This document shows positions 5,253-54,078 of a DNA stretch of 64,000 nucleotides, piece after piece (position 1 is the first letter of the stretch; every line of letters starts with the position of its first letter). The DNA comes from Opitutia bacterium (GTDB taxonomy: Bacteria > Verrucomicrobiota > Verrucomicrobiia > Opitutales > Opitutaceae): the NCBI GenBank assembly GCA_947452315.1, contig CANGCX010000001.1:46766-110765 (forward strand). The letters are read 5' to 3'. The translations under genes were made by a program, and so were the position numbers. The notes beneath the pieces are model-generated. The model had not been told where the DNA came from. It was given only the letters and a program-made list of their open reading frames with translations, and made no database searches.

Positions 5253-8200
5253 ATGATTCTTTCTGATCTATCCATCCGCCGCCCGGTCATTTGCTTGGTG
5301 GCCTCCATCATCATCATATTGGTAGGACTGCTGCGCTTTGGCGAAATGCCGGTGCGCGAATACCCCAATATCGATTCGCCGACGGTATCTATTATCGCCA
5401 ATTACCCTGGGGCTTCCGCGCAAGTCGTGGAATCAAAATTGACTGAGCCATTAGAGAAGGAGGTCGCTGCTATCGAGGGTATCCGGCTCATTCGGTCTAA
5501 TTCCGCCGAGCAACGCTCAACCATCACGATTGAATTCAATCTGGGTCGTAACATTGATGAAGCGGCCAATGATATCCGTGACCGCGTGAGTCGGGTGAAA
5601 CTTCCGCCCGAAATTGATGCTCCACGCGTATCAAAAGCTGATCCAGATTCTACGCCAATTTTGTCGTTATCGTTCAATTCTACGCGATTCACGCGATTGG
5701 AAATCGTTGAAATGCTCGACCGCATAGTCGTGCCGCGAGTGCAAACAGTTCCCGGCGTGGGCTCGATTATTGTAGACGGCCCACGTTACGCCATGCGGCT
5801 GTGGATCGATAGTGACCGACTTGCCGCATACAGTCTTACAGTGAGCGACGTGGAGAGCGCCCTGCGTCGGCAAAACGTCGAAGTTCCTAGCGGACGCATA
5901 GAATCCATCACGCGCGAATTCCCCATACGCTTCATTGCCAACTTGAATGAGGTTTCAGAATTCGAGAACCTCATTTTGGCTACTCGAGGCACCTATCAGG
6001 TCAAATTTAGTGACGTTGGTCGCGTCGAACTCGGTGCCGAAGAGTACCGCACGGACACCTTGTTTAAAGGTCGACCCACCGTGGGTGTTCAAATCTTGCG
6101 ACAATCACAGTCCAATTTGCTCGAGACCATCGAAGGTGTAAAAAAACTAATCCCGCTTTTTAAAACGCAGATGCCTGAGGGGATTAATATCGAAGTAAGT
6201 CGTGACGACTCGGCTTATATCTCACGCTCGGTTCAGGAAGTTTATAAAACACTTTACGAGGCTGCGATACTCGTAGTTTTGATGATTTTTTTGTTTTTGC
6301 GCAATTGGCGCGCAACTCTAATCCCCCTCGTTGCTATCCCTGTCTCGATAATCGGATCTTTCGCCATTATCGCGGCGTTGGGATTTTCGATCAATATTCT
6401 TACCCTCCTCGCTTTTGTGCTAGGCATCGGTCTTGTGGTAGACGACGCGATTGTGATGCTGGAAAATATCTACCGGCGAATTGAGCTCGGAGAAGAAGTA
6501 ATCTCGGCCTCCATTTTTGGCGCTCGCCAAGTCGCCTTTGCCGTCATTGCAACCACACTCACACTGGCGGCGGTTTTTGTACCGGTAGCTTTTCAATCTG
6601 GCCAGACAGGGCGTCTATTTTACGAGTTTGGCATCACACTCGCGGTCTCGGTACTTGTTTCGGCCTTTGTCGCTTTGACGCTTACGCCGATGTTGTGTTC
6701 GCGCCTACTTCGGCGCCACGAATCTAATGGAGAGTCTCACGGTTGGTTTTACAATAAAACCGAACCTTTTTTTGTTGGGATGACCGCTGTTTTCGCCCGA
6801 TGTCTGCAAGTTTCGCTGCGTTTCAAATATTCAGTTTTGTTTTTCGGTCTTTGTTTTGCGGTAGGTGGCGGATGGCTCTACACGCAACTTCAACGCGAAC
6901 TCGTTCCGATGGAAGACCGCGGTATTTTTACGATTAATATGGTTCCGCCAGTCGGCTCCACGCCGGAATACCTCAAGCTTTACTCGGCCGAAGCTGAACA
7001 GATGGCGCTTACGATACCAGAAATCGACCGCACGTTCATGCGCATGACCGAGACTAGTTCCTACATCAACGCTACGCTTAAGCTCTGGGAAGACCGCAAA
7101 CGCAAATCGCAGGAGATCACCGTTGATATGCGTAAAATGCTTCAAGCTAAAATGACAGGCGTCCAAGCCTCCGTTGCCGCAGGTCGGCCATTCGGTGGTG
7201 GCGGTGTCAAAGGCGCAGGAGCAGTTCAACTGGTTTTACAAGGACCGGAGTTCGATCAACTTCAAACTTCAGGACAGGAAATTCTGCGTCAGATGCGTGA
7301 GAGCGGTATTTTTGCTCAGCCTCGATTGGACCCTTCGCCGACGAAACCTCAACTGGATGTACGCGTTGATCGGGCTAAAGCCGCAGACTTACGCGTCGCC
7401 GTAAGCGATGTGGCCTCAACGTTAGAAACGATGCTAGGCAGTCGGCGTGTGACTCAATTCCAGCGTGGTAGTCAGCAATACTACGTCATGCTCCAAATCG
7501 AGGATGCCGAGCGGGTCACGCCTAACGATCTAGGCCGTCTTTATGTCAAATCCGGCACTGGGCATCTCGTGCAATTGAGTAATTTAGTTACTTGGTCTGA
7601 GAATACCGTACCGGAGAATTACCCTCACTTTAATCGTCTACGCTCAGTCACGGTTTCTTCTCAATTAGCTGACGGAGTTACTATTGGTGATGCAGTCGAA
7701 TTTTTACAACGTCAGGTTAGGGACGTGTTACCCGTAGGTTATTCGTATTCCTGGGACGGGGAATCACGTCAATATGTCGAAGGAGCCAGTGACACCTCGA
7801 AGCTCTTTGGACTGGCTCTTTTGTTCACGTTTTTGATTTTGGCTGCGCAATTTGAATCCTGGATTCATCCTCTCACTATTCTGACCGGAGTAGTCTTCGC
7901 TGTCGCTGGGGGAATTGCTGTCCTTTACTGTTCCAGATATTGGGGGGTGGCTATGACTGATAATATTTTCTCTAGATTTGGACTCATTCTCCTCATCGGA
8001 CTAGTGGCCAAAAACGGTATTCTAATCGTTGAATTCGCCAATCAGCTTCAAGTGGAAAAAGGAGTCGATGCCGCGCACGCCGTGTTTGAAGCAGCGACAC
8101 TACGTTTCCGACCGATTCTGATGACATCGGTTGCCACCATTCTTGGCGCCGTTCCCATTGCCTTTGCGCACGGCGCTGGCGCCGAGACGCGGAATCCCCT

Positions 8201-8396
8201 CGGTTTGGTTGTTGTCGGTGGATTAAGTATCGCGACCGCGCTCACTCTATTCGTCATCCCAATCGTGTACACGTTGATGGACAGAGCGTGCTTGAGGTTC
8301 ACGGGTAAAACCAGCGCCGATGGTCTTAAACAAGCACACCGTATCGAGCAGGAGACAATGGCACCTTTTCAATCGAACCCGACCGAATCTCGCTGA
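5253..8396 (+). CDS. RND family efflux transporter permease (AcrB/MexB type)
   Basis: This is a proton-driven inner-membrane pump of the hydrophobe/amphiphile efflux class, probably exporting drugs, detergents or lipophilic metabolites. At 1047 residues it has the normal length. The start MILSDLSIRRPVICLVASII is typical, as is FGEMPVREYPNIDSPTVSI. The proton-relay aspartate pair is in LGIGLVVDDAIVMLENIYRR near residue 400, and the TM10 lysine is in LLIGLVAKNGILIVEFANQ near 910. Two large periplasmic loops separate the membrane blocks. It forms an operon with the adaptor upstream. Substrate cannot be inferred from sequence. The stop lies 22 bases from the convergent transporter gene. Confidence 0.95.
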   Translation: MILSDLSIRRPVICLVASIIIILVGLLRFGEMPVREYPNIDSPTVSIIANYPGASAQVVESKLTEPLEKEVAAIEGIRLIRSNSAEQRSTITIEFNLGRNIDEAANDIRDRVSRVKLPPEIDAPRVSKADPDSTPILSLSFNSTRFTRLEIVEMLDRIVVPRVQTVPGVGSIIVDGPRYAMRLWIDSDRLAAYSLTVSDVESALRRQNVEVPSGRIESITREFPIRFIANLNEVSEFENLILATRGTYQVKFSDVGRVELGAEEYRTDTLFKGRPTVGVQILRQSQSNLLETIEGVKKLIPLFKTQMPEGINIEVSRDDSAYISRSVQEVYKTLYEAAILVVLMIFLFLRNWRATLIPLVAIPVSIIGSFAIIAALGFSINILTLLAFVLGIGLVVDDAIVMLENIYRRIELGEEVISASIFGARQVAFAVIATTLTLAAVFVPVAFQSGQTGRLFYEFGITLAVSVLVSAFVALTLTPMLCSRLLRRHESNGESHGWFYNKTEPFFVGMTAVFARCLQVSLRFKYSVLFFGLCFAVGGGWLYTQLQRELVPMEDRGIFTINMVPPVGSTPEYLKLYSAEAEQMALTIPEIDRTFMRMTETSSYINATLKLWEDRKRKSQEITVDMRKMLQAKMTGVQASVAAGRPFGGGGVKGAGAVQLVLQGPEFDQLQTSGQEILRQMRESGIFAQPRLDPSPTKPQLDVRVDRAKAADLRVAVSDVASTLETMLGSRRVTQFQRGSQQYYVMLQIEDAERVTPNDLGRLYVKSGTGHLVQLSNLVTWSENTVPENYPHFNRLRSVTVSSQLADGVTIGDAVEFLQRQVRDVLPVGYSYSWDGESRQYVEGASDTSKLFGLALLFTFLILAAQFESWIHPLTILTGVVFAVAGGIAVLYCSRYWGVAMTDNIFSRFGLILLIGLVAKNGILIVEFANQLQVEKGVDAAHAVFEAATLRFRPILMTSVATILGAVPIAFAHGAGAETRNPLGLVVVGGLSIATALTLFVIPIVYTLMDRACLRFTGKTSADGLKQAHRIEQETMAPFQSNPTESR

Positions 8397-8418
8397 TCGC
8401 TAACCAGAGCTTAGTTGT

Positions 8419-9708
8419 TTATTTAATCGAATTTGACTCCGTAGGTTCGAGATTTTTTGGGAACGAAACTCCCTCCCAGCGCGCAATCACAGCTGGAGCC
8501 GTGCAATGCCCTAAGACATTTACGCTCGTGCGTATGGGATCAATCAATGCGTCGATACCTAGTAGCAGTCCGAGTCCTTCCATCGGTAAACCGAAACTTT
8601 GAAACAACGCAGTGAGCACAACAAAATTAGCCCGCGGAATACCGGCGACGCCCTTACTCGTAAGTTTTAACGTGAGCAAAATCAGTAATTGTTGATCAAA
8701 CGAGAGCGGGACGTGGGCTGCCTGAGCGACAAACAACGTAGCAAGTCCAAGGAAAAGTGTACTCCCGCACAAATTTAGACTAAGGCTCAATGGAGCAACG
8801 ACACCAAGAATGCGGCTCGGAACACCAAAGCGCTCCATGTTTTCAAGCGTCTGAGGCAGAGCAGCCGCGCTGGAGGTCGTTCCAAAAGCGATCAGGAACG
8901 GTTCCCTTACAAAGTGAATAAATCGGCGGAGAGGGACTCCAAATAGAGCGATTGAGCCACCGAGAAATAATATCAGAAACAAAAGTTCTGCTCCCCAAGC
9001 GGCGATAAAAAGGCGAAACAAGCCGAATAAGACGTCCAAGCCACCGGAAGCGACGGTGCCCGAAATCGCCGCGAATACCGCGAGTGGAGCCAGATACATA
9101 ATCAAGTGGGTGAATCGAAACGCTACACCGACCACTGCATCCGCAAGAGCTAGGACCGGTTTGGCGCGCTCACCCGCGGACAAACACGCCACGCCGAATA
9201 AAAAGCTGAAAACAACGATCTGAAGCACATCGCCCCTAGCCATCGCATCAATGATGCTGGTTGGGAATGCATTCACAAACACGTCGAGAAATGAAAGTTT
9301 TTGCGCGGCCGGAATCGCTTGCGCAGCTAAAGTTACATGCGCACCTGGTTGGAAAATAACTGCTGCGAACCAACCAAGAAGTAGGGCTACGGTAGTCGCG
9401 ACTTCGAAATATAAAAACGATTTCCAGCCCAAGCGACCTAGGTCACGCATGCCGCCGATTCCGCCAACCGCGCGGACTAAGACGCCAAATAAGACCGGCG
9501 CTATGATGGCGCGAATTAAACGCAGGAAAATATCACTGATGAATTTAAGATGTCCTGCCGACTGAGGGGCGAGGAAACCAAAGGCGATACCACCGAGAGC
9601 AGCCAGTAGCATCCACTGCGCTAGAGAAATCTGGGTGATGAACGCGAACGCAGACTTGCGCGGCGTTAATTGGTTTGGAGCAACAGGGCTAGATTGTGTA
9701 AGAGACAT
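8419..9708 (-). CDS. Dicarboxylate/amino acid:cation symporter (DAACS family) with altered Na+ site residues
   Basis: This 429-residue membrane protein belongs to the GltP/DctA family of elevator transporters for acidic amino acids or dicarboxylates. HP1 is FGTTSSAAALPQTLENM (about 276-291), HP2 is SKGVAGIPRANF (about 351-362) and TM8 is GIDALIDPIRTSVNVLG (about 384-400). The TM8 residues matching GltPh D390, D394, R397 and N401 are present. Two sodium ligands are not: the TM7 NMDGT motif reads NLCGS (Cys314 for the Asp), and the TM8 Asp matching GltPh D405 is His401. Coupling ion and substrate may therefore differ from glutamate transporters. It lies 17 bases after the mauE-like gene and may be co-transcribed with that redox operon. 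Confidence 0.88.
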   Translation of the reverse strand: MSLTQSSPVAPNQLTPRKSAFAFITQISLAQWMLLAALGGIAFGFLAPQSAGHLKFISDIFLRLIRAIIAPVLFGVLVRAVGGIGGMRDLGRLGWKSFLYFEVATTVALLLGWFAAVIFQPGAHVTLAAQAIPAAQKLSFLDVFVNAFPTSIIDAMARGDVLQIVVFSFLFGVACLSAGERAKPVLALADAVVGVAFRFTHLIMYLAPLAVFAAISGTVASGGLDVLFGLFRLFIAAWGAELLFLILFLGGSIALFGVPLRRFIHFVREPFLIAFGTTSSAAALPQTLENMERFGVPSRILGVVAPLSLSLNLCGSTLFLGLATLFVAQAAHVPLSFDQQLLILLTLKLTSKGVAGIPRANFVVLTALFQSFGLPMEGLGLLLGIDALIDPIRTSVNVLGHCTAPAVIARWEGVSFPKNLEPTESNSIK

Positions 9709-9725
9709 GGGGTCAGGTTTTAATT

Positions 9726-10196
9726 TTAGGGTTTAATTAAAGAGGAAGAAATAGAGTTAGTTCGGCGCTGCAGCCAGACTGCAGCCCAAAGCATAAGACA
9801 GGCCCGTATAAGGGCTATAAAGGGCAAATTAATCCAAAGACCACGAGCGGATCCAAAGCAGCCGCAGTTCAAGTCCAAACCTCGAATCATTGCTTGAGTC
9901 AGCATCAGTACAAAAATCGAGGACATGGCCACGGCGAGTAAACTCACGCTCTGGCGCCAAAAACCAGTGATCAAGCCGACACCACAGATCAACTCAAGGC
10001 AGGGGAAGGCGACTGCGATAAGCCTACTGAGGAGATCGGGCATCGGTAGCTCGTAGGCTAGCAGATCGGCATGAAAACCGATGGGGTCAGAAATTTTTAG
10101 AAAACCCGCTAGGCAAAACACCGCGCCTAGCGCCCAACGTACCCCTAGTAGGGACTTGGGTGATATCCGCTGCAGAAATTTCCGGATAGATTTCAA
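9726..10196 (-). CDS. MauE/DoxX-like membrane protein, probable redox partner
   Basis: This is a 156-residue membrane protein with about four hydrophobic segments. It resembles the MauE family, which supports disulfide formation in methylamine dehydrogenase and often sits beside thioredoxin-fold proteins. The start region GVRWALGAVFCLAGFLKISDPIGF is typical. A conserved cysteine pair appears as LNCGCFG (Cys111, Cys113). The start codon is TTG, overlapping the stop of the 59-codon gene upstream in the string TTGA, which implies translational coupling. With the DsbA-like gene it makes a likely envelope thiol-redox operon. A role in methylamine metabolism is not implied because no mau structural genes are present. 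Confidence 0.82.
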   Translation of the reverse strand: MKSIRKFLQRISPKSLLGVRWALGAVFCLAGFLKISDPIGFHADLLAYELPMPDLLSRLIAVAFPCLELICGVGLITGFWRQSVSLLAVAMSSIFVLMLTQAMIRGLDLNCGCFGSARGLWINLPFIALIRACLMLWAAVWLQRRTNSISSSLIKP

Positions 10197-10372
10197 GAAG
10201 CTAACGGAATGACTTTAAAAACCGGAAGCGGGCGGGGGAATACGAGGCGTTGTTTAGGCCGAAACCAATCAAGTGCCAGACCTAGAGCAAGCGAGAGCAC
10301 ACCCAGAATCACTAGTCGAAAGGCCTGTCTTGTTCTCAGCGGGTGCCTCAGCGCGTTGAATATGGGGTGCAT
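10193..10372 (-). CDS. Small single-pass membrane protein, 59 aa (below the ORF-track cutoff)
   Basis: I translated this gene by hand; it is just too short for the ORF track. It begins with ATG, MHPIFNALRHPLRTRQAF, has a hydrophobic segment RLVILGVLSLALGLALDWF (about residues 19-37) and ends VFKVIPLAS. Position strongly supports it. The start is two bases after the TAA of the DsbA-like gene, and the TGA overlaps the TTG start of the MauE-like gene. The shape, a basic N-terminus, one helix and a short tail, predicts an N-in membrane protein with its C-terminus in the periplasm. I recognise no family. It could be a subunit of the DsbA/MauE redox pair, or the remnant N-terminal anchor of a longer protein. 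Confidence 0.68.
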   Translation of the reverse strand: MHPIFNALRHPLRTRQAFRLVILGVLSLALGLALDWFRPKQRLVFPRPLPVFKVIPLAS

Positions 10373-10374
10373 AG

Positions 10375-11052
10375 TTAAGGCGTTTTGAGCAACTCATCAA
10401 AGACCCGCTGAAACTGATCGAGCGTTTGGGCGCCAGCGATCGATGTTTCTGTGATCTGACCATTTGGTCCCATTTTCCAAATTAGAAAAGTCGGCGTGCC
10501 TTTGAGTTTAAGCCGAGTGTAGAGGGCGAAATCAGCCACGACGGCATTGCGGGTTGGGCGTTCGCGCAGACACATATCGAGTTCTTCGCGATTTATATGC
10601 GCGCTCTTGGCAACCAGTGACTCGAGCATACTGGGAGCGCGATGGGCGACTTGGAAGAGGCTGTCGAGCATGTCCCAGTATTTGCCTTGTTGGTGGGCGC
10701 AATGGGCTATGTCGAAAATTTTACTGAATTGATCAGAAGGATCGTCAGACGCGTTAAGCACGACCCACTGCACGTGGCCGGGCTTGATGTACTTCTCACT
10801 CAATCGAGGGAAAACCACCTCGTGGAATTTGCGGCAATGCGTGCATTTGAAGCTAGAGACTTCAACGACCACTATAGGGGCCTCGGCTGAACCTATGCTT
10901 GGTCGATTAGCCAAGACAATGGGAAGCCGCTGGCGAAATTCTGTCGCTGCAGAGCGGCGGATAGAAGACACAACTTCTTCCGCGTCGAGCGGATGGACTA
11001 AAATGCAACTAAACCCCAGAGCTACTAACAACAATCTACCGCAGAAAATCAT
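10375..11052 (-). CDS. DsbA-like thioredoxin-fold thiol oxidoreductase, exported
   Basis: This is a thioredoxin-fold protein of the DsbA/Thioredoxin_4 type, expected to make or shuffle disulfides in the periplasm. I start it at the internal ATG (225 aa) because MIFCGRLLLVALGFSCILVHPLDAEE is then an N-terminal signal peptide, with AAAGG about 8 bases upstream. The ORF-track start adds 26 unlikely residues. The redox motif is SFKCTHCRKFHEVVFP (Cys70, Cys73) and the cis-proline loop is KLKGTPTFLIW (Pro187). Extra cysteines are at 118 and 161. It is the first gene of a tight operon with the 59-aa membrane protein and the MauE-like protein, which may re-oxidise or reduce it. Confidence 0.88.
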   Translation of the reverse strand: MIFCGRLLLVALGFSCILVHPLDAEEVVSSIRRSAATEFRQRLPIVLANRPSIGSAEAPIVVVEVSSFKCTHCRKFHEVVFPRLSEKYIKPGHVQWVVLNASDDPSDQFSKIFDIAHCAHQQGKYWDMLDSLFQVAHRAPSMLESLVAKSAHINREELDMCLRERPTRNAVVADFALYTRLKLKGTPTFLIWKMGPNGQITETSIAGAQTLDQFQRVFDELLKTP

Positions 11053-43681: not shown

Positions 43682-43930
43682 TCACGAGCGCACCAGCCGC
43701 GACCGTGAGAAACGTAACTCCGGCGGTGCGCTGACCCGTGGACTGGCGCGGAATCGCCCTAGAGTTTCTAGATTTTCCGCCTCGCGGTTTCCTGCGGCAA
43801 AGCCGGCGCGCAATTCTGCCAGGACCACGAGCGGAAGAAAAATAAGATTGGCCCGGCGGACGATTTCGACCCGGCTCGGTGTGCCTCGCAGGAAGTCGCT
43901 GTAAGCAGTGGTGTCGAGCGCGACGTTCAT
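43682..43930 (-). pseudogene. Truncated VapC-like PIN toxin, N-terminal part
   Basis: The 82-aa product begins like a PIN-domain ribonuclease toxin: MNVALDTTAYSDFLRGTPS carries the first active-site Asp, and IFLPLVVLAELRAGFAAGN the conserved Glu. Normal members are 125-140 aa with two more acidic residues near the end. Here the reading ends in an unrelated basic tail (LRFSRSRLVRS), so the second half is lost and activity is unlikely. It starts directly at the stop of the antitoxin-like gene, the usual order for such pairs. Local GC looks higher than in the flanking housekeeping genes. Confidence 0.7.
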
Positions 43931-44158
43931 CTACTTAGAGACCGCTTCGTCAACCTGCTCGAAGGCCTGGATCGCAGAGTCGAACGCAGGGTCATCGCGC
44001 CACGTGCCGATCAGCGAATCGAGATCGTGATGGGTGGCGACTGAAGCAGCCTGCGAGCGGCTGAGAAACGCAGCGAGCCACGCGGCGAGTCGCGCCGCCT
44101 CCGTCTTGGGGAGGCGCTCGATGGCATGCTCGATTTCGGTGATGGTACTCACGGCCAT
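43931..44158 (-). CDS. Antitoxin-like protein of a VapBC-type pair
   Basis: This is a 75-aa protein beginning MAVSTITEIEHAIERLPKTEAARLAAWLAAFL, typical of small antitoxins encoded before PIN toxins. The C-terminal part, DDPAFDSAIQAFEQVDEAVSK, would be the toxin-binding tail. It is intact while its toxin is truncated, so it may be a leftover, or it may still neutralise related toxins elsewhere. No DNA-binding motif is obvious. It starts with ATG and abuts the toxin fragment with no gap. Confidence 0.68.
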   Translation of the reverse strand: MAVSTITEIEHAIERLPKTEAARLAAWLAAFLSRSQAASVATHHDLDSLIGTWRDDPAFDSAIQAFEQVDEAVSK

Positions 44159-44397: not shown

Positions 44398-45363
44398 TCA
44401 CTTCCACCCTATCCGCTCTTTTTCTATGACCAAAGGGCGCTTAGTGACTTTGGTATGAATAGATCCGAGGTATTCGCCCAAAATCCCGATAAAAAACAAC
44501 TGCACCGAAGCAAAGAAGAACAAGCCTATTACAACCGGCGCGATCCCAAGGGCAAAGCGCTCCCAAAATATGAGCTTGTACACGAGGTAGGCAAAACCGA
44601 CGAGGAAGGATAAAGCAGACGCACCAAAGCCGACCATTGTCGCTAGTCGTAGCGGCACCTTGGAGTGACTCGTGATTCCCAGCATCGCGACGTCGTAAAG
44701 GGTGTAGAAATTATTTTTGGTGATCCCGCGCTTACGCAGGGGTTGCTCGTAAGGTACACGCGCGACCGGATAACCTAGTTCGCACACCAAACCCCGCACG
44801 TAGGGGTAAGGATCTTCCATCGCGCGCAAGTCCTCAATTACCTTGCGATCGTAAAGCCCGAAGCCGGTGGCGTTCTCGATCAATTCCACGTCAGCTAACC
44901 GTTTGACCACTTTGTAATAAAGGCGGCGCAACGTAAAAAATAACCATGATTCCTCGCTTTGGATCTTCTGCCCCATCACCACGGCGTATCCCTCACGCCA
45001 TTTTTTTATAAGCTCCGTAACCAACTCAGGCGGATCCTGTAAATCTGAAGCCATCACGACAACCGCATCACCGCTCACCTCCAACAGTCCGTGATAGGGT
45101 GAACGGACGTGACCAAAATTGCGCTGATTTAAAATGGCCTTTACCGGCAAGCCCCCCGCGGGTTGGCGCTCGGTTTGAGCGACGAGCTTCCTCAACTCAT
45201 CTTGGGTTCCGTCGGTGGAAGCGTTGTCGATAAAAACCAATTCGCATGCCAAGTCGGGCAATTCCGCGACGACCGCCGTCAACCGTTGGTGCAGCAAAGT
45301 TACATTATCCCGCTCGTTAAAGCAGGGCGCCAAAAGGGTAAGAGAGCGAGCTGTTGAAGTCAT
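44398..45363 (-). CDS. Membrane-anchored family 2 glycosyltransferase (DPM1/GtrB-like)
   Basis: This family 2 enzyme is of the polyprenyl-phosphate glycosyltransferase type, which loads a sugar from a nucleotide donor onto undecaprenyl phosphate or extends a lipid-linked glycan at the inner membrane. The 321 residues have a GT-A catalytic domain (LLAPCFNERDNVTLLHQRL; FIDNASTDGTQDELRKL; MASDLQDPPELVTELI with the DxD-type site) and two C-terminal membrane helices (LATMVGFGASALSFLVGFAY; PVVIGLFFFASVQLFFIGIL). It lies 126 bases downstream of the OleB-like gene, so it may be the distal gene of that operon or independent. galE at the far end of the cluster could supply its donor sugar. Confidence 0.88.
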   Translation of the reverse strand: MTSTARSLTLLAPCFNERDNVTLLHQRLTAVVAELPDLACELVFIDNASTDGTQDELRKLVAQTERQPAGGLPVKAILNQRNFGHVRSPYHGLLEVSGDAVVVMASDLQDPPELVTELIKKWREGYAVVMGQKIQSEESWLFFTLRRLYYKVVKRLADVELIENATGFGLYDRKVIEDLRAMEDPYPYVRGLVCELGYPVARVPYEQPLRKRGITKNNFYTLYDVAMLGITSHSKVPLRLATMVGFGASALSFLVGFAYLVYKLIFWERFALGIAPVVIGLFFFASVQLFFIGILGEYLGSIHTKVTKRPLVIEKERIGWK

Positions 45364-45489: not shown

Positions 45490-46386
45490 TCAGGCCCTAA
45501 GAATAAATTCCGATACCTTAGACCTGACCGGTGCGCCGCCATCATCTAAAATATAATGTCCGCAATCCGGTAAATAATGGACCGTAGTACCTGGGAAAAC
45601 CTTAAGCCACCGATCGCGAAAATGATCGTTGAAGCAGAAGTCTCTGCCTCCCCAAACGATCAATTTTGGATTAGGTTTAAATCGAACAAGATTTTGTTCA
45701 ATGAAAGCTAATGTAGGTCGGCTTGGATGATTAAGCTCCAAAGGGATGTCCTGAACAAAAGCGTTCACTGCGACTCGATCATCCCAATTAGAATAAGGCA
45801 GCAAATAGCCCCTCTGCTCATCCTTGGAAAGTTTACGTTGGTTCATTGACATCCAGACTGCAGGTGCGGCGAAGCCGTTGAGACCTCGGACTAGCAATTT
45901 ACCTAAAATGGGTATGCGACAGATCGAAATTCGCCGTGGAATTTGATCTGAAACAAAGGCTGCGGTGTTAAGAATGGTAATCTTTCCAATTAATTCCGGA
46001 TGGCGGGCGGCGAAGCCAAAACCTATGGCTCCACCCCAATCGTGCACGACTAGATGGACGAGTTTAAGATCGAGGCTTTTTATCAAGGCCTCGATGTCTG
46101 TGATGCGATTATCTAAGGTGTAATCGTAATGCTGGGGTTTATCGGATAACCCCATGCCGATGTGATCAGGCGCAATACAACGTATGTTTGGCGACAAATC
46201 CCGGATCAGATCACGATAAAAAAAGGACCAGGTCGGATTGCCATGCAACATAAGCACCGCCACATCTTGGCGTGGGCCTTCGTCGACAAAACTCATCTTA
46301 GCACCTGAAGGAGTGGCAAAAGATTTGGGCGCGAAGGGATATAACTTCGCTATCCCATCTGCGATTTTTAGAAGCAGCTTTACCAT
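45490..46386 (-). CDS. OleB-like alpha/beta hydrolase (haloalkane-dehalogenase fold)
   Basis: This alpha/beta hydrolase is closely like OleB, the enzyme that decarboxylates beta-lactones to olefins, and like haloalkane dehalogenases. I start it at an ATG that overlaps the OleA-like stop (298 aa, about the length of known OleB); the ORF-track start is an upstream TTG. Residue numbers below count from that TTG start; subtract 7 for the ATG form. The oxyanion motif is LMLHGNPTWSFFYRDLI, followed by CIAPDHIGMGLSDKPQHYDY. The nucleophile is an Asp, as expected, in LVVHDWGGAIGFGF (Asp123, Trp124), and the C-terminal His is in YLPDCGHYILDD. Neighbours point to OleB rather than a dehalogenase, yet OleC, which makes the beta-lactone, is absent. 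Confidence 0.82.
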   Translation of the reverse strand: MVKLLLKIADGIAKLYPFAPKSFATPSGAKMSFVDEGPRQDVAVLMLHGNPTWSFFYRDLIRDLSPNIRCIAPDHIGMGLSDKPQHYDYTLDNRITDIEALIKSLDLKLVHLVVHDWGGAIGFGFAARHPELIGKITILNTAAFVSDQIPRRISICRIPILGKLLVRGLNGFAAPAVWMSMNQRKLSKDEQRGYLLPYSNWDDRVAVNAFVQDIPLELNHPSRPTLAFIEQNLVRFKPNPKLIVWGGRDFCFNDHFRDRWLKVFPGTTVHYLPDCGHYILDDGGAPVRSKVSEFILRA

Positions 46387-47411
46387 TCGAGTGCGAGCAT
46401 CAGGCAATTTAGGCCACTACCGATTCCCAGTAAGCCCACGCGGTCACCCGGTTTGACCGCACCTTGTTGAGCTGCGAGAGCCAAGGTGGCAGGCAAGGAT
46501 ACCGACCCCATGTTGCCCAAGGTCTCAAAAGTGGAAAAATCCTTACTCAGATCAAGGCTCAGCGTCTCGTACAGTTTTCGTCGATGCACCGAGCCAACTT
46601 GGTGGCAAATAAAACGATCTATTGCGTCCGCGCTGAGACCTGTGGTGGTTGCGAAATCCGCCCAAGTAGCTCGAGCAAGCTCGACGCCAGCGATGAGTAA
46701 TTGCTCTGAATCGGTCTGCATTGCGAGCGACTCCGCGCCGTGCGTATCGCCCTGACACAAATCGCTGTGCTGCGTGGCAGCACGAGCGACACCCCCGAGC
46801 AATTTGTGTCCGTTTGGAGCGAGGTCTTGGTGGCAAATTAATGCACCTACTGCGCCCGAACCGATGGTGAGATTAGCGAAAAACGGTTTGATCTCATTTC
46901 GTGTAAGATTTTTTTCGCGTAGAGTGCGTAACGTTTGTTCGACCAGCGGGCGCCCGTGTTCACCCGCAACTACTAAGGCGCAGCGAATCTGTCCGCTCTC
47001 GATCATGGAAGCTGCCACGGTCAAAGAATTTAGAAATCCTAGACAAGCGTTAGAGACATCAAAAATCTGAGCCGTCGCCGGCAGGCCGATTTTCCGATGC
47101 GCAAACGAAGCCGTCGCCGGCTCCAGCATGTCTCGCGATACGGCGGCATGAATAAAAAGCTCCACCTGTTCTGGCTTGAGCTTAGAAGCAGCGAACACGG
47201 CTTTGCCGGCTGCGGCGCTCGCATCCGAGGGGCGCGTGGCATCAGACCAGACGCGTCGCTCACGAATCCCAGTCATTAGCTCGAGCCGGCCGAAGGGAAG
47301 CTTGAGACGCTCGTAAAGCGGCCGCAACTGTTCCTCGATCGCGGCCGAGGAAAGGATTTCTTCGGGCAGCGCGACGGCGAGGGCTTCGATGCGAACTTTG
47401 GAGAATCTCAT
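46380..47411 (-). CDS. OleA-like thiolase (head-to-head acyl condensing enzyme)
   Basis: OleA joins two fatty acyl thioesters by non-decarboxylative Claisen condensation to a beta-keto acid. The 343-residue protein matches OleA better than FabH: VSRDMLEPATAS holds the OleA-specific glutamate (Glu97), FDVSNACLGFLNSL the catalytic Cys123, FICHQVGSVHRRKL the His270, and TLGNMGSVSLPATL the Asn300. The ending VGLLGIGSGLNCLMLALEW is nearly the OleA ending. It overlaps the FabI-like stop as ATGA, and the OleB-like gene starts within its end. No OleC ligase or OleD reductase is nearby. A FabH-like priming role for a special fatty acid pathway is the alternative. Confidence 0.85.
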   Translation of the reverse strand: MRFSKVRIEALAVALPEEILSSAAIEEQLRPLYERLKLPFGRLELMTGIRERRVWSDATRPSDASAAAGKAVFAASKLKPEQVELFIHAAVSRDMLEPATASFAHRKIGLPATAQIFDVSNACLGFLNSLTVAASMIESGQIRCALVVAGEHGRPLVEQTLRTLREKNLTRNEIKPFFANLTIGSGAVGALICHQDLAPNGHKLLGGVARAATQHSDLCQGDTHGAESLAMQTDSEQLLIAGVELARATWADFATTTGLSADAIDRFICHQVGSVHRRKLYETLSLDLSKDFSTFETLGNMGSVSLPATLALAAQQGAVKPGDRVGLLGIGSGLNCLMLALEW

Positions 47412-48229
47412 GTCGCAGATGAGTCCATGCGCATCGCTAGACGAATGACTTCCTTATCGAAGAAATTGTTACCGAGTCCGGCGTCCACCACGAGTGTCGC
47501 GCCATTGATGCCACTGCTGCGTTCGCTAAGTAAAAACACGGCGGTATCTGCTATCTCTGCAGTCGAAAGATTTCGTTTTCGGAATGTCAGTTTTTCCGCG
47601 TACAGATAGCTTTCCAGGTAGCCGGGAATACCGGCCGATGCGCTGGTTTTAAGCGGACCTGCGCCGACGACATTGAAACGAACTTCGCTATCCGCGCTGA
47701 AAGATTTGGCGAGAAACCGCGTGCACGAATCGAGCGCGGCTTTGATCGGGCCCATATAGCCGTAGTTATCTGGCGTTACGAGCAACGATGAAATGCCTAT
47801 CGTCACCACAGAGGCGTTCTTCGCAAGCAACGGCTTAAAAGCATTTGCGATTTCTACCAAAGAAAATGCTGAGATCGCTGTCGCTTGTAGAAAATCAGCT
47901 CGTTTCGTTTCGTGAAACGCTTTGAAGCCATCGCTGTAATTTGCGAATGCGATCGAGTGAACGATGCCATGCAACATCTTGTGGCCGGCGGCAGCGATTT
48001 CACCTGCGATTCGATTTGCCGCACCTTCTTGTTCTACATCGCAGATAAAGACAGGCTTGCCGCCTAGGAGCGAAGCAAGCGATTGCCGCCGCATTTCTGA
48101 ACGCACACTGTAAAGGACTTTGGCCCCCTGCTCCTCAAGCGACTTGGCAATAAACCAAGCGACACTCTTGCGATTGGCGACACCGAAGACCAAAAACGTT
48201 TTACCGGAAACTTGCAGGAAATCACTCAT
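47408..48229 (-). CDS. FabI-like enoyl-ACP reductase paralogue lacking one active-site tyrosine
   Basis: This 273-residue Rossmann-fold protein belongs to the FabI branch of short-chain dehydrogenases. It has the divergent glycine motif VFGVANRKSVAWFIAKSL, the loop IVHSIAFAN, the Tyr-x6-Lys pair in NYGYMGPIKAALD (Tyr156, Lys163) and FNVVGAGPLKTSASAGI. The second tyrosine of E. coli FabI (Tyr146) aligns with Ile146 here. It may still reduce enoyl-ACP, or be specialised for an unusual acyl chain, or act on a keto group. It overlaps its neighbours on both sides by ATGA, so it is translationally tied to the OleA-like and FabZ-like genes. The housekeeping enoyl reductase is presumably elsewhere. 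Confidence 0.85.
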   Translation of the reverse strand: MSDFLQVSGKTFLVFGVANRKSVAWFIAKSLEEQGAKVLYSVRSEMRRQSLASLLGGKPVFICDVEQEGAANRIAGEIAAAGHKMLHGIVHSIAFANYSDGFKAFHETKRADFLQATAISAFSLVEIANAFKPLLAKNASVVTIGISSLLVTPDNYGYMGPIKAALDSCTRFLAKSFSADSEVRFNVVGAGPLKTSASAGIPGYLESYLYAEKLTFRKRNLSTAEIADTAVFLLSERSSGINGATLVVDAGLGNNFFDKEVIRLAMRMDSSAT

Positions 48230-48669
48230 GCTTTAGGCGCGCTGGCGGGGGTAGTCCATGCGACCGTAAAATCCACGGTAAGCACGCGCTTATCAGCGCT
48301 TTTAATACTGCCGCTCATCATGGTGAAACCTCCAAGCGATTCTTTTTTCTTCACCTCAATAACAATGGTTTCTCCGGGATATACTGGATTACGAAAACGC
48401 ACGTCACTGATCTTCGCCATGAGCGGCACGCCGGCAGGCGTCCCCTGCCCTGCGGCTTGGCGAGCCAAATATAAGGCGCCCGTCTGAAACACCGCTTCGC
48501 AGAGCAATACACCAGGTGTAATCGGTGCACCGGGATAGTGGCCTTTGTAAAATTCTTCGTCAGCGCGCAGTGTGCGTTTCGCGATTAAGCCATCGGGTGT
48601 TTCCGAAACGATTTCATCAACAAAAAGAAAAGGAGGACGATGCGGAATAAGATCAGTAACTTGGCTCAT
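48226..48669 (-). CDS. FabZ-like 3-hydroxyacyl-ACP dehydratase
   Basis: This hot-dog-fold dehydratase removes water from 3-hydroxyacyl-ACP. The 147-residue protein has LIPHRPPFLFVDEIVSETPD at the start and the active-site stretch FYKGHYPGAPITPGVLLCEA, with His44 and Glu58. FRNPVYPGETIVIEVKKKES completes the fold. It lies between flavoprotein B (5-base gap) and the FabI-like gene (ATGA overlap), separate from any lpx genes, so a dedicated role in the cluster pathway is more likely than general lipid synthesis. Confidence 0.9.
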   Translation of the reverse strand: MSQVTDLIPHRPPFLFVDEIVSETPDGLIAKRTLRADEEFYKGHYPGAPITPGVLLCEAVFQTGALYLARQAAGQGTPAGVPLMAKISDVRFRNPVYPGETIVIEVKKKESLGGFTMMSGSIKSADKRVLTVDFTVAWTTPASAPKA

Positions 48670-48674
48670 AGGAA

Positions 48675-50132
48675 TTAGACCGGAGTTGATGCCGGCGCAC
48701 CTTGTTTAAGAGCGAAAAGATATTTATCCACTTTATTGGCCGTGATAATCCCATAGTTAATCGTACCTAACCAACCCGACATAATAATGCCCACGCTTCC
48801 GGCGTGGAATAACCCCGGAAGTTTTTCGGAAAGATGCATCGAGACAGGAAGACCTTCAAATTTTGTGCCGAACGAAGTGCCATTAAGATGCGTGGTGTAG
48901 CGTTCGATGGTTCGGGGCGTAGCGGCCTCTTTCCAATCGATCTTGTCGCGCACGCCCGGAATGAATTTCTCCAGAGCTACGAGTGATTCCTCTATCATGC
49001 GCAGCTTGTGAGCCTCGTAATCATCCTCAGAAAGCGATTTCCAGTCAGGATAAAGACCGTTAAGAGAAGCCACGACCGTGTAACGATCAGAGCCGGGACG
49101 CGTATCAGGATAGTACACCGAAAACGTCCGGCTTGTAGTGTGAAAATGCGTGAGCTCTTCGTTGCTATACTGTGGAGCGGCGGAGGTGAAAACGAGGTCG
49201 CCGATATGCGGAATGCTTTCACCTTTTCGGATACCGAAATAGACTTGGCAGGAACTGGAATTGATTCGAACCGCCCGCGCTTGCTCGATAAAATCGACGG
49301 GGAAGTTTTCTTCACCTGCGAGCCGGAAGATCGTATTTTTGATATTGGCGTTGGACAGGACTGCTTTGGCGCGTATGACGCGGCCATTGCCCGCAACGAT
49401 ACCGCACGCCACTTTCTTGCCGTCGCGTTCTTCGACTAGGATTTTATCGACAAGAACTTTTTTGCGCATCTCGACGCCGTTTTTCTTTAATTCGACGACC
49501 ATTTTATCGATGAGATCATCGGATCCGCCGCGAAATGTATAAACGCCAGCCCCCATGAAGTTGGAGAACACAATACCGAAAGTGATCGCAGGGTCATCGA
49601 AATTGGAGCCATTAGCGTAAGATATCGGCTCCATCAACAATCGGTGCACATCGGGGCGCCCAGGAAAGAACCGATTCAGCATCTGCCCGGTGGTCTCCGG
49701 GTTGTTGTCGTAATAATTCATCGCCCGGAGGTAGTCGTAAAACGCTTCAACCTCGGTGCGTTGTAGTTTAAATTGATCGACGAGTACGCGGGTGTAATCT
49801 TCACGAGTGAACGTCGTCCACACGTCCATTTGCGGGTTCACAAATCGAATGTCCTTTAATTGAACAATAGCATCGGAAATTTCCTTCGTCCAATACCGGC
49901 GACAGGACTTGATCATACCGCTAGGAAAACCGTGCAACGAAATATCAAAAATGTGCCCACCTTTCCGCGTGAACCAGGTGGCGAGTCCGCCAAATTGATA
50001 ATGATGCTCGACCAAGAGCACGCGGTGGCCGGCCTTCGCGAGCGCATTTGCACCCGTGAGGCCGCCTAAGCCGCTGCCGATCACAATCACATCGTACTCG
50101 TCGGCGACACCTTTGAGCCAATCGTAAGCCAT
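48675..50132 (-). CDS. CrtI/RetSat-like FAD-dependent oxidoreductase B
   Basis: This flavoprotein is of the phytoene-desaturase/retinol-saturase superfamily, about 485 aa from the ATG I chose (the ORF-track TTG adds 13 residues). The FAD-binding start is [20 protein letters not shown] with the acidic end of strand two at [16 protein letters not shown]. Other family parts are [20 protein letters not shown] and the C-terminal FAD motif [22 protein letters not shown]. Members desaturate, saturate or isomerise long polyene or acyl chains. No carotenoid genes (crtE, crtB) are near, and it sits among fatty-acid elongation genes, so an acyl-chain substrate is inferred. Location is probably cytoplasmic, membrane-associated. 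Confidence 0.85.
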
Positions 50133-50172
50133 GGAGCGACCAAGGTGAGCCGCCGTATGGCCAAAGCGCAAC

Positions 50173-51030
50173 TCAGAGTTTAAGTCCGCGCAGATATTTG
50201 AACGATTCAGGAATAGACCGAAGCGGAAACATCGTCTCGTCTTCGAGAAAATAGTGCTTCACGCCGATTTTTTGGGCAGCGCTAAGCACTTCTTTCCAAT
50301 TAATCTGTCCGTCGCCGACGGCTACTTTTGCCATCGCGGGACTGCCTCCGGTGTGGGTGCCACGTTGGAAATCCTTTAACATATCTTTAATGTGCAACAT
50401 CGAAAAGCGGTTAGGGTATTTGGCCAAGAGCGCCGCGGGATCGATACCCGTGATGAAAACCCAGTACACATCCATCTGGTAAGTCACGAGGTCCGGCTGC
50501 GTCTCACGGACCAGCAGATCAAACATTGTTTCCCCCTTGCCTGCTGCAGTCTCGCGAAACTCTAGACCGTGCGGGTGGTAGCCGAACATCAATCCAGCTT
50601 TTTTGCACGTTGCGCCCCATTCATTGAATTTGGCGGCCATAGAGTGAGCCATTTCCTCACTAAACGGCTTAGTCTTGCTTACTGGTGGATAAGGCACGAC
50701 CACGTACTTGAGCCCTAAAGCCTTAGCCTCAGTGATGACAGCGTTGATATCTTTTTCAAAAAGCCCGTAGCCAAAGTGTCCGCTTACCGGAGAGAGGCTG
50801 CGCTTCTTTAACTCAGAGACATATTCGTCGGGTTTCAATGAACCGGTGCCAGCCACTTCAACTTCTTTCACGCCATAAGACTGAGCGAGATCGAGTGCGC
50901 CCGTGGTGCTTTCCTTCGCCTGAGCGCGTAAACTGTATAGTTGAAGACCGAGACGATCTTGGAAGTCCGATCCCAATAGGCGACTTACGAGAATCGCCGC
51001 AACTAAAATGAATCTGAATGTATTATTCAT
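50173..51030 (-). CDS. Exported xylose-isomerase-like TIM-barrel protein (sugar phosphate isomerase/epimerase family)
   Basis: The 285-residue product starts [21 protein letters not shown], a signal peptide, then has the TIM-barrel family of AP endonuclease 2/xylose isomerase: [64 protein letters not shown] and [12 protein letters not shown]. Candidate metal ligands are in HPHGLEF, MDVYW, LHIKD and HYFLEDET. Such exported proteins are common in Verrucomicrobia and planctomycetes and are assumed to act on carbohydrates. It lies between the two CrtI-like genes on the same strand with gaps of 30 and 40 bases. A role in a lipid pathway is not obvious, so it may be a passenger. Confidence 0.86.
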
Positions 51031-51060
51031 GGGGATGGGTATACCCAACGAATACGGCTC

Positions 51061-52488
51061 TTAGTTTTTTTGCAAGATATGAAAGTTCGCCATCGAAATA
51101 CCGCTCAACATTGCTCCTATAATACCCAAAAAACCTTGGTCGGTACCGCAAAGATAAACGTTTTCCAGCGGAGTGCGACCTTGGCGGTGCTTGATTGGGG
51201 CGCCATAAATTGCCCCTCCGATGTGTCCCGTGAATTTGGTGATAGTACGCGGAGTAAACATGTCCGTCGTGATCGTGGCTTCCGCCAGAATGGAGTCACT
51301 TATGCTTGGGAGGAATCGCCGCGCACTGCGTTGCACCTCTGCGAAACAATGTGTTTTTTGCGCTTGGTAACTCTCCTCGGCCAACGGCGCCCATTGATCG
51401 TAGCACGCGAGACAAGTAACTCGGAAAACACCCTCGGAGAGTTGGCGGTCAGGTCCGAAATCAAAATTGTTGGGCAAACAAATCACGCCACTTCGAGTAT
51501 CCAAGGATGCGGACGGACACGCATAATCGAAACGAGCTGAGTCATTAAAAAATACGATCGTGTCACTCCCCCACCCGATTGCCGCAGGTTGGCATTTTAA
51601 AATTGAAATCGTTTCGACGAAGGAAAGCCGACCGGTCTCGAGGGGCGCCGCTTGAGGAGCCAACCCAATCAAACGTTCGGTCTCCGGTGCGCCGATAGAT
51701 GAGATGACGTGCGTAGCTGTAATTTCTTCGCCTGAATCGAGCAGCAGAGCAGTCGCGCGACCTTCGCGGGATATAATTTTTTGCACACCGCATTTCATGC
51801 GACGCTCCCCCCCTGCTTGGCGGTACTTGTCCAATAGCACCCGCAGAATCACCCGAACCCCATCAAAAGGCCGCGCAAAGCCCTCGAGAAAAAGCGCCTT
51901 AAACATGATCACGAATTGGCCAAACTCCATGTCGTGCTCTTGTGCACTGCCGTAGTACATGACCGGGCAAAAAAGCATGTCTTCAAGCAAGGCGTCTTTG
52001 ATGTGCGTACGCACGACGGCGCGGGCGGAGATCGGTGCGACATCTAGCGAAACATCATCGTAGGTTTTGATGGCAGCTACGAGTGTGCGGAAACCGTCGA
52101 TTTCTTTGGGGAACTGCGTCGCTACCTCGTTCTCGAAAACCGCAAAATCATTGGTGAAGCGCAGAGAAGTTTCGCCGTTGGGCCCGAAAGCGACCCGGGA
52201 TTGTTTTTGCTCACATAGCGCGAATTCGGCGCGATCAATTCGCAATTGGCGCAACAGTTTAGTTAGGGGTGTTCCTTTCACGCCCGGCCTGACAAAGTTC
52301 GTCAACGCGTGCAGGCCGACGTCAAATTTGCGCCCAGAGATACTGTAAAAACTATTAAGACCTCCGGTCGCGTTGTGGCGCTCGAAAATACAGACTTTTT
52401 TTCCGAAGTGCGCCAAGCGGATCCCCGCGGCCAAACCCGACATACCCGCGCCAATGATTGCGACATCGTAGTGGCTGCAGGAGTTCAT
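51061..52488 (-). CDS. CrtI-like FAD-dependent oxidoreductase A
   Basis: This is the second phytoene-desaturase-superfamily flavoprotein, 475 aa from the internal ATG (MNSCSHYDVAIIGAGMSGLA); the ORF-track start adds 40 unrelated residues. The dinucleotide-binding motif is DVAIIGAGMSGLAAGIRLAH, then CIFERHNATGGLNSFYSISG and FDVGLHALTNFV. The central part is ITATHVISSIGAPETERLIG. The C-terminal FAD site is ENVYLCGTDQGFLGIIGAMLSG. It differs widely from flavoprotein B, so the two probably do different steps rather than being a recent duplication. It is separated from the upstream ACP gene by a hairpin. The reaction is unknown; desaturation or double-bond isomerisation of ACP-bound chains is a guess. 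Confidence 0.84.
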   Translation of the reverse strand: MNSCSHYDVAIIGAGMSGLAAGIRLAHFGKKVCIFERHNATGGLNSFYSISGRKFDVGLHALTNFVRPGVKGTPLTKLLRQLRIDRAEFALCEQKQSRVAFGPNGETSLRFTNDFAVFENEVATQFPKEIDGFRTLVAAIKTYDDVSLDVAPISARAVVRTHIKDALLEDMLFCPVMYYGSAQEHDMEFGQFVIMFKALFLEGFARPFDGVRVILRVLLDKYRQAGGERRMKCGVQKIISREGRATALLLDSGEEITATHVISSIGAPETERLIGLAPQAAPLETGRLSFVETISILKCQPAAIGWGSDTIVFFNDSARFDYACPSASLDTRSGVICLPNNFDFGPDRQLSEGVFRVTCLACYDQWAPLAEESYQAQKTHCFAEVQRSARRFLPSISDSILAEATITTDMFTPRTITKFTGHIGGAIYGAPIKHRQGRTPLENVYLCGTDQGFLGIIGAMLSGISMANFHILQKN

Positions 52489-52504
52489 GCTTGGTGCGTG
52501 GGCA

Positions 52505-52535
52505 GAGAAAAGGCCGGGAAGACGATTCCCGGCCT
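52505..52535 (-). terminator. Intercistronic hairpin, terminator-like, after the ACP gene
   Basis: On the minus strand AGGCCGGGAA-TCGTC-TTCCCGGCCT is a perfect 10-bp stem with a 5-base loop, followed by TTTCTCT. It lies in the 68-base gap between the ACP and flavoprotein A genes. It may cause partial termination, or protect the upstream mRNA end, giving more ketosynthase/ACP than downstream enzymes. Confidence 0.65.
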
Positions 52536-52556
52536 GAGTTTGAAATCGATCGACAA

Positions 52557-52820
52557 TCAGCCTTTGGCGGCAATAGCGATGAACTTGGGCGTCAAATACT
52601 CGGCGCAACTGTCAAGTGAAGCTAGGTGTTGGTAATCAGCCTCGGGCACTTCGATGCTATGGCGCTTGCGGAGCTCCATGACGATATCGAGGAAATCCAT
52701 GCTATCGAGTTGAAGTTGATCGCGTAGGCGTACTTCAGGTTTCACATTCGAAAGGTCTTCGTCGGGCGCGATATCGGCGATGATGTCGAGTACGACTTGC
52801 TTGCATTCGTCTTTGGTCAT
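52557..52820 (-). CDS. Acyl carrier protein, cluster-dedicated
   Basis: This carrier protein is 87 aa from the internal ATG (MTKDECKQVVLDIIADIAPDE). Its phosphopantetheine serine is in the motif LQLDSMDFLDIVMELRKRH (Ser40), where LDSMDF stands for the usual DSLD-type sequence. The long helix after it and the acidic character are normal. It lies 19 bases after the ketosynthase gene and probably carries the chain for that enzyme, the FabZ-like dehydratase and the FabI-like reductase. The DSM rather than DSL motif marks it as specialised. The general acpP is presumably elsewhere. The ORF-track start at 52862 overlaps the ketosynthase end and is less likely. Confidence 0.9.
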   Translation of the reverse strand: MTKDECKQVVLDIIADIAPDEDLSNVKPEVRLRDQLQLDSMDFLDIVMELRKRHSIEVPEADYQHLASLDSCAEYLTPKFIAIAAKG

Positions 52821-52839
52821 GGTGCGGTAGAATTCGGGA

Positions 52840-54078
52840 TTAGGTGGTAAAGCGTTTAACAATCAACGCGGAATTTATGCCCAGCATCCCAAAAGAATTA
52901 TTAAGAATAGTGTCTACTCTTGCAACCTTCCGCGGTTGATTGAGCACAAGACCGGGCAAAGCGCACGCAGGATCAAGATCATCAACATTAATTGAAGGGT
53001 GCACGGTAAAGTCGTTAAAGGATGGGAGATTGCCCGCAAGTTCGAGCGCCCCGGCCGCACCCATGCAATGTCCAATATAGCCCTTGGTGTTGTTGATGTA
53101 GGTCTCGGGACAGCCCTCTCCAAACACCGCACGGATCGCTTCGCATTCTTGGATATCGCCCAACGGCGTGGCCGTAGCGTGGGTGTTCACGATGTGGATA
53201 TCACTCGGCTTGAGCCCGGCGCGCGTAATGGCGGCGCGGATGCACTCAGCCTGACGCGTAGGATTGGGCAACACGTAGTCCGATGCATCGGAGTTGACGT
53301 GATAACCGGCAATTTCGGCATAGATTTTGGCTCCCCGCGCCTGAGCGTCTTCGAGGCGCTCGAGCGTATACAAACACCCCCCCTCGGATATGACGATGCC
53401 GTTGCGGGCTTTATCGAAGGGGCGCGAGGCTTTGAGCGGATCTTCATGCTGCGCGAGTGCGTTTTGAGATTTGAAACCTGCGAAAATCCCAAAGGTGTGA
53501 ATGCTTTCGCTGATTCCTCCGCAGATCGCGAAATCCACTTCACCCAGTCGCAACATTTGCGCGGCGTGAATCAGGCCCATATTCCCTGCCGCGCAAGCAG
53601 CACCGATAGTGTAAGCCGGACCGGTGATACCGAGGTTGAGCGAGGTTTCGCCGGCAGGGTTATTGGCGACTGTGCGGGGATTGTGATAGTGCGACCAGAA
53701 CTTCGTATCGTAGTTAAATTTCGAAATATTGTAGATTTCGTTCTCGGTCTCAACGTTACCATGTTCGGTACAACCGATGTAAATGCCAACGCGGTCCTTG
53801 GGCAGCATTTCAAAATTAACCCCACAGTCCGTTAATGCCTCACGCGCGCAATAAATAGAAATGGATCCCGCCCGCGTTCCTACGCGGAGTTCTTTTTTCT
53901 TTTGGTACTTTAATGGGTCGTAGTGACATACGCCCGCTAGCTGGGTCCCCATGTAGCGGATCTCCATGCGCTCGATTCCGGCGATGCCGCTCAGAAGATT
54001 TTGCCGAAATTCGGCCAAAGAATTGCCGTTGGGGGCCGTGAGACCAACTCCGGTGATGACGATACGCGCGGGCTTCAT
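52840..54078 (-). CDS. FabF-like beta-ketoacyl-ACP synthase, cluster-dedicated
   Basis: This condensing enzyme extends ACP-bound acyl chains with malonyl-ACP. The 412-residue protein has the complete Cys-His-His triad: TIGAACAAGNMGLI (Cys162), HIVNTHATATPLGDIQECEA (His300) and NNTKGYIGHCMGAAGALELA (His337). The end SFGMLGINSALIVKRF is standard. Differences from housekeeping FabF, such as ACAAGNMG and KGYIGHCMG, indicate a specialised branch. It is the first gene of the operon, with its start 62 bases from the divergent galE. No chain-length-factor partner lacking the Cys is present, which argues against an aromatic polyketide. Confidence 0.91.
   Translation of the reverse strand: MKPARIVITGVGLTAPNGNSLAEFRQNLLSGIAGIERMEIRYMGTQLAGVCHYDPLKYQKKKELRVGTRAGSISIYCAREALTDCGVNFEMLPKDRVGIYIGCTEHGNVETENEIYNISKFNYDTKFWSHYHNPRTVANNPAGETSLNLGITGPAYTIGAACAAGNMGLIHAAQMLRLGEVDFAICGGISESIHTFGIFAGFKSQNALAQHEDPLKASRPFDKARNGIVISEGGCLYTLERLEDAQARGAKIYAEIAGYHVNSDASDYVLPNPTRQAECIRAAITRAGLKPSDIHIVNTHATATPLGDIQECEAIRAVFGEGCPETYINNTKGYIGHCMGAAGALELAGNLPSFNDFTVHPSINVDDLDPACALPGLVLNQPRKVARVDTILNNSFGMLGINSALIVKRFTT

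Follow-up and report, generated by a model that had tools for sequence, protein, structure and literature searches.

The window analyzed here is a 64-kb stretch (G000:C1:46766-110765) of a genome assembled into 175 contigs (2.77 Mb, 84% complete), probably that of a verrucomicrobial, Opitutae-like bacterium. It carries a run of nine genes on one strand, in the order fabF-acp-crtI1-(iolE)-crtI2-fabZ-fabI-oleA-oleB, so that oleAB closes the run. From FabF to OleB, the intergenic gaps are no longer than 12 bp, or the genes overlap. The features of the run and its flank are as follows:

44398..45363, minus strand: GT2 glycosyltransferase, 126 bp downstream of oleB
45490..46407, minus strand: oleB, alpha/beta hydrolase of the haloalkane dehalogenase/OleB type, by homology a cis-beta-lactone decarboxylase (the start is possibly the alternative ATG at 46386)
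46380..47411, minus strand: oleA, predicted head-to-head acyl condensing thiolase (E97, C123, H270, N300)
47408..48229, minus strand: FabI-like enoyl-ACP reductase, with 4-bp overlaps with both neighbors
48226..48669, minus strand: FabZ-like 3-hydroxyacyl-ACP dehydratase
48675..50171, minus strand: CrtI2, a CrtI/carotenoid isomerase-like FAD oxidoreductase that co-occurs with OleA phylum-wide
50173..51048, minus strand: IolE/AP_endonuc_2-type protein, between crtI1 and crtI2
51061..52608, minus strand: CrtI1, another CrtI-like FAD oxidoreductase (the listed TTG start is probably too far upstream)
52557..52862, minus strand: acyl carrier protein (ACP)
52840..54078, minus strand: FabF-like ketosynthase; the genome has three KAS I/II-type genes, this one included

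Two of these genes probably do not belong to the pathway discussed below. The IolE-like gene was not seen in the clusters of relatives and is probably a passenger, and the GT2 gene is not conserved beside oleB in relatives. The N-terminus of the IolE/xylose-isomerase-like protein resembles a signal peptide. Separately, at 43682-44158 (minus strand), a short ORF (43931-44158) is directly followed by an 82-aa ORF resembling the start of a PIN/VapC-type protein. This is possibly a VapBC-like pair in which the second gene is shortened; PADLOC returned no match for the 82-aa ORF.

The initial annotation named the two last genes of the run OleA and OleB, and both names are upheld, as is the placement of the two genes, which overlap on the minus strand. 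The OleA protein matches the NF006720/PRK09258 model with 451 bits (cut-off 285), versus 106 bits for FabH, and Xanthomonas OleA matches the same model with 474 bits. The top PDB matches are all X. campestris OleA (3row and others, 1.7e-65), with FabH far weaker (about 1e-19). In the alignment, E97, C123, H270, and N300 correspond to E117, C143, H285, and N315 of the characterized OleA and are invariant between them, so that both the Glu-Pro general base (E97-P98) and the Cys/His/Asn set are present. Phylogeny agrees: the window thiolase clusters with OleA, apart from both FabH proteins of its own genome. These residues, together with the family assignment, suggest that the protein would condense two long acyl chains head to head.

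For OleB, the evidence comprises the HGNPTW and HDWGG motifs, the catalytic residues D123, D256, and H284 (an Asp nucleophile plus Asp/His), and 40% identity to the OleB of the Xanthomonas oleABCD cluster. Several residues that are common to all OleB proteins aligned are absent from DhaA. The tree also separates OleB from the haloalkane dehalogenases, with support of only 90/95 and with two long branches as the outgroup.

A divergent OleA (39-41% identity) occurs in f49, a different family of the phylum (G143 and G215; L123 9567-10607 and L133 9736-10776). In these two genomes there is no OleB match near the divergent OleA and no CrtI2 match genome-wide. It may represent a subtype of OleA that gives a different product.

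No OleC or OleD match was found in the 64 kb (tblastn, 1e-3), as the initial annotation had observed; the sole 3Beta_HSD match within the window is a GalE. Of the two explanations offered there, the first, that the missing genes lie elsewhere, turned out to be right. An overlapping oleC-oleD pair is located at the start of another contig of the same genome (C78). Because oleC is broken by the contig edge, only its 3′ 232 codons (the C-terminal 232 residues) are present, and the N-terminal half falls outside the assembly. The end of this AMP-binding gene is overlapped by the start of oleD, a 380-codon SDR. The best model for OleD is NF042422 (2-alkyl-3-oxoalkanoate reductase), at 376 bits, under its cut-off of 580. 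The OleC fragment ranks PRK09274 first (255.9 bits), with olefin beta-lactone synthetase models second (216.9 bits) and third, and it shares 57% identity over 227 residues with the full-length OleC of a relative, G035. The latter gives the same ranking, with PRK09274 at 620.7 bits ahead of both olefin beta-lactone synthetase models (500.5 bits for the Xanthomonas one). Both OleC and OleD score under the curated cut-offs set for the NCBIfam models specific to Xanthomonas and Shewanella, as expected for a genome from another phylum.

The split arrangement is not peculiar to this genome. Among 103 genomes of the order, 82 have OleA and 86 have OleD: both occur in 80 (i.e., 80 of the 82 genomes with OleA), OleA only in two, OleD only in six, and neither in 15 (raw counts that ignore shared ancestry). 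Where loci were fetched, OleB adjoins OleA in 19 of 20 OleA loci, and OleD has OleC beside it or close by in 18 of 20 OleD loci; no second OleA or OleB lies beside oleCD in the 20 oleCD loci fetched. In five genomes in which both genes are on one long contig (G035, G020, G032, G090, G094), oleAB and oleCD are 0.37-2.3 Mb apart. Thus, in place of the canonical single-locus oleABCD layout, oleAB and oleCD are at separate loci, and the ole pathway is divided between them in a conserved manner rather than truncated.

We consider it very likely that the genome encodes a complete OleABCD pathway for long-chain alkenes, distributed over two loci, with oleAB closing an operon that has its own FabF, ACP, FabZ, and FabI and two CrtI-like flavoproteins. 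This degree of confidence does not extend to a polyunsaturated chain supply, which is weighed separately below. In the predicted sequence of reactions, OleA would condense two acyl chains head to head, OleD would reduce the resulting beta-keto acid, OleC would close the beta-lactone, and OleB would decarboxylate the lactone to the alkene. The roles of OleD and OleC, encoded elsewhere in the genome, are assigned from family membership, as is that of OleB.

All four Ole proteins of the systems known from Xanthomonas campestris, Stenotrophomonas, and Shewanella are thus represented, with the catalytic residues of OleA retained. Identity to the Xanthomonas/Stenotrophomonas set is about 35-47% for all four proteins (OleC was compared via the G035 relative). 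The difference is one of arrangement: there are two loci rather than one cluster, and oleAB shares its operon with FASII and CrtI-like genes. The occurrence of oleABCD in Opitutae was reported previously (PMC5673642), as was oleC in PVC genomes, including Opitutaceae, from Lake A (PMC10176705). We found no publication that describes either the division into two loci or the link between CrtI2 and OleA, but our search did not include the Sukovich 2010 survey, so a prior description is possible.

The initial annotation made no use of the FASII and CrtI-like genes of the operon, and these are relevant to the question of which chains OleA receives. In 16 of the 20 loci from the order, oleA has FabI as its neighbor, with FabI and FabZ upstream; in 12 of the 20, CrtI2 lies inside the 20 kb around OleA. 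The full gene set was found again in four genomes of the same family (G035, G080, G180, G183) and in one of another family (G032). In two genomes from another family of the phylum (G275 and G290; L121 and L122, about 6400-10750), FabF-ACP-CrtI1 is divergent beside OleA, unlike in the window.

The association between CrtI2 and OleA reaches well beyond the operon. Of 289 genomes surveyed in the phylum, both are present in 73, OleA only in five, CrtI2 only in four, and neither in 207 (Fisher p = 6e-57, a value that ignores shared ancestry). Outside the order, the corresponding counts are 31, 5, 3, and 207 (p = 9e-31, with the same caveat), and there the two genes are on different contigs or far apart. 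A search of 21 gammaproteobacterial ole genomes gave no CrtI2. On its own, such an empty result means little, but this query was positive in 73 of 78 OleA genomes of the phylum.

Two further known kinds of system come close to this arrangement. One is the pfa-ole coupling behind hentriacontanonaene (C31:9) in Photobacterium, Shewanella, and Geobacter bemidjiensis, in which a dedicated chain-making synthase feeds the ole pathway and adjoins it in some strains; for Photobacterium, an interaction of OleA with the Pfa synthase has been reported, probably through the ACP domains of the synthase (PMC6463001; PMC4882568). Here, a Pfa synthase was rejected as the chain source, and with it a Pfa-type PUFA supply, because none of the 103 genomes of the order has a PfaA above the TIGR02813 cut-off; discrete FASII proteins and CrtI-like flavoproteins are present instead. 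The other comprises the clusters of Kuenenia (ladderane candidates) and Desulfotalea psychrophila, in which FabF, ACP, FabZ, and phytoene-desaturase-like genes are likewise grouped (compared by published description only; PMC2649909, PMC4790861). Desulfotalea, with its FASII/phytoene-desaturase-like clusters, is a producer of polyunsaturated hydrocarbons (PMC2649909). In contrast to those clusters, the operon includes oleA and oleB, and no radical SAM gene was detected among the ten proteins of the run that were scanned, so it does not qualify as a ladderane-type cluster.

By analogy with the Photobacterium coupling and the Desulfotalea clusters, the FASII-CrtI module would most likely be the maker of the acyl chains for OleA, and these would probably be polyunsaturated. 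A more specific version is that the discrete proteins of the FASII set act with the CrtI-like FAD enzymes as a Pfa-independent synthase of polyunsaturated chains that supplies OleA, an undescribed route to polyunsaturated long-chain hydrocarbons, with CrtI2 introducing or isomerizing double bonds on ACP-bound chains. We put this forward tentatively, at slightly less than an even chance.

Its main competitor is that saturated or monounsaturated chains from core FASII feed the ole pathway, and that FabF-ACP-CrtI-FabZ-FabI belong to the synthesis of a different lipid and have no more than the operon in common with oleAB. The olefins of Xanthomonas and Stenotrophomonas do come from core FASII chains (PMC6463001), and several genomes have CrtI2 away from oleA. 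However, throughout the phylum CrtI2 is kept where OleA is kept and lost where it is lost, even when the two are unlinked, and that no CrtI2 turned up in the gammaproteobacterial ole genomes searched also counts against this explanation, which we regard as rather unlikely. A good deal less probable is that the CrtI-like genes encode carotenoid enzymes. Although the best fold and profile matches of these proteins are carotenoid desaturases or isomerases, their scores are far under the carotenoid cut-offs, and the CrtI2 structure model is of low confidence (pLDDT 63.6), so that its fold match to carotenoid desaturases supports the superfamily only. Moreover, no phytoene/squalene synthase (PF00494) match was found in the 84% complete genome, and the phytoene-desaturase-like proteins of Kuenenia made no lycopene (PMC4790861), which makes a non-carotenoid role of such proteins plausible. 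The other branch of the initial annotation, in which OleA and OleB work alone and OleB acts on a beta-keto acid or thioester to give a ketone or free acid, could appeal to the content of the 64 kb and to the reported spontaneous decarboxylation of the OleA product to a ketone without OleBCD (PMC6463001), but it is rejected as highly improbable given that oleC and oleD are in the genome and that OleD is kept with OleA throughout the order.

With oleCD in the genome and the split conserved, OleB can meet the usual beta-lactone, and there is no need for a new substrate. Its substrate is therefore most likely the usual cis-beta-lactone, as its sequence also suggests, and its product a long-chain alkene.

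One practical consequence is that 64-kb windows, or rules requiring a clustered oleABCD, would wrongly label such genomes as incomplete. If CrtI2 is a chain-modifying enzyme, as the Pfa-independent route from the FASII-CrtI module would have it, then it would open Pfa-independent polyene synthesis in bacteria to genetic study and offer a way to test what the phytoene-desaturase-like genes do in the Kuenenia and Desulfotalea clusters.
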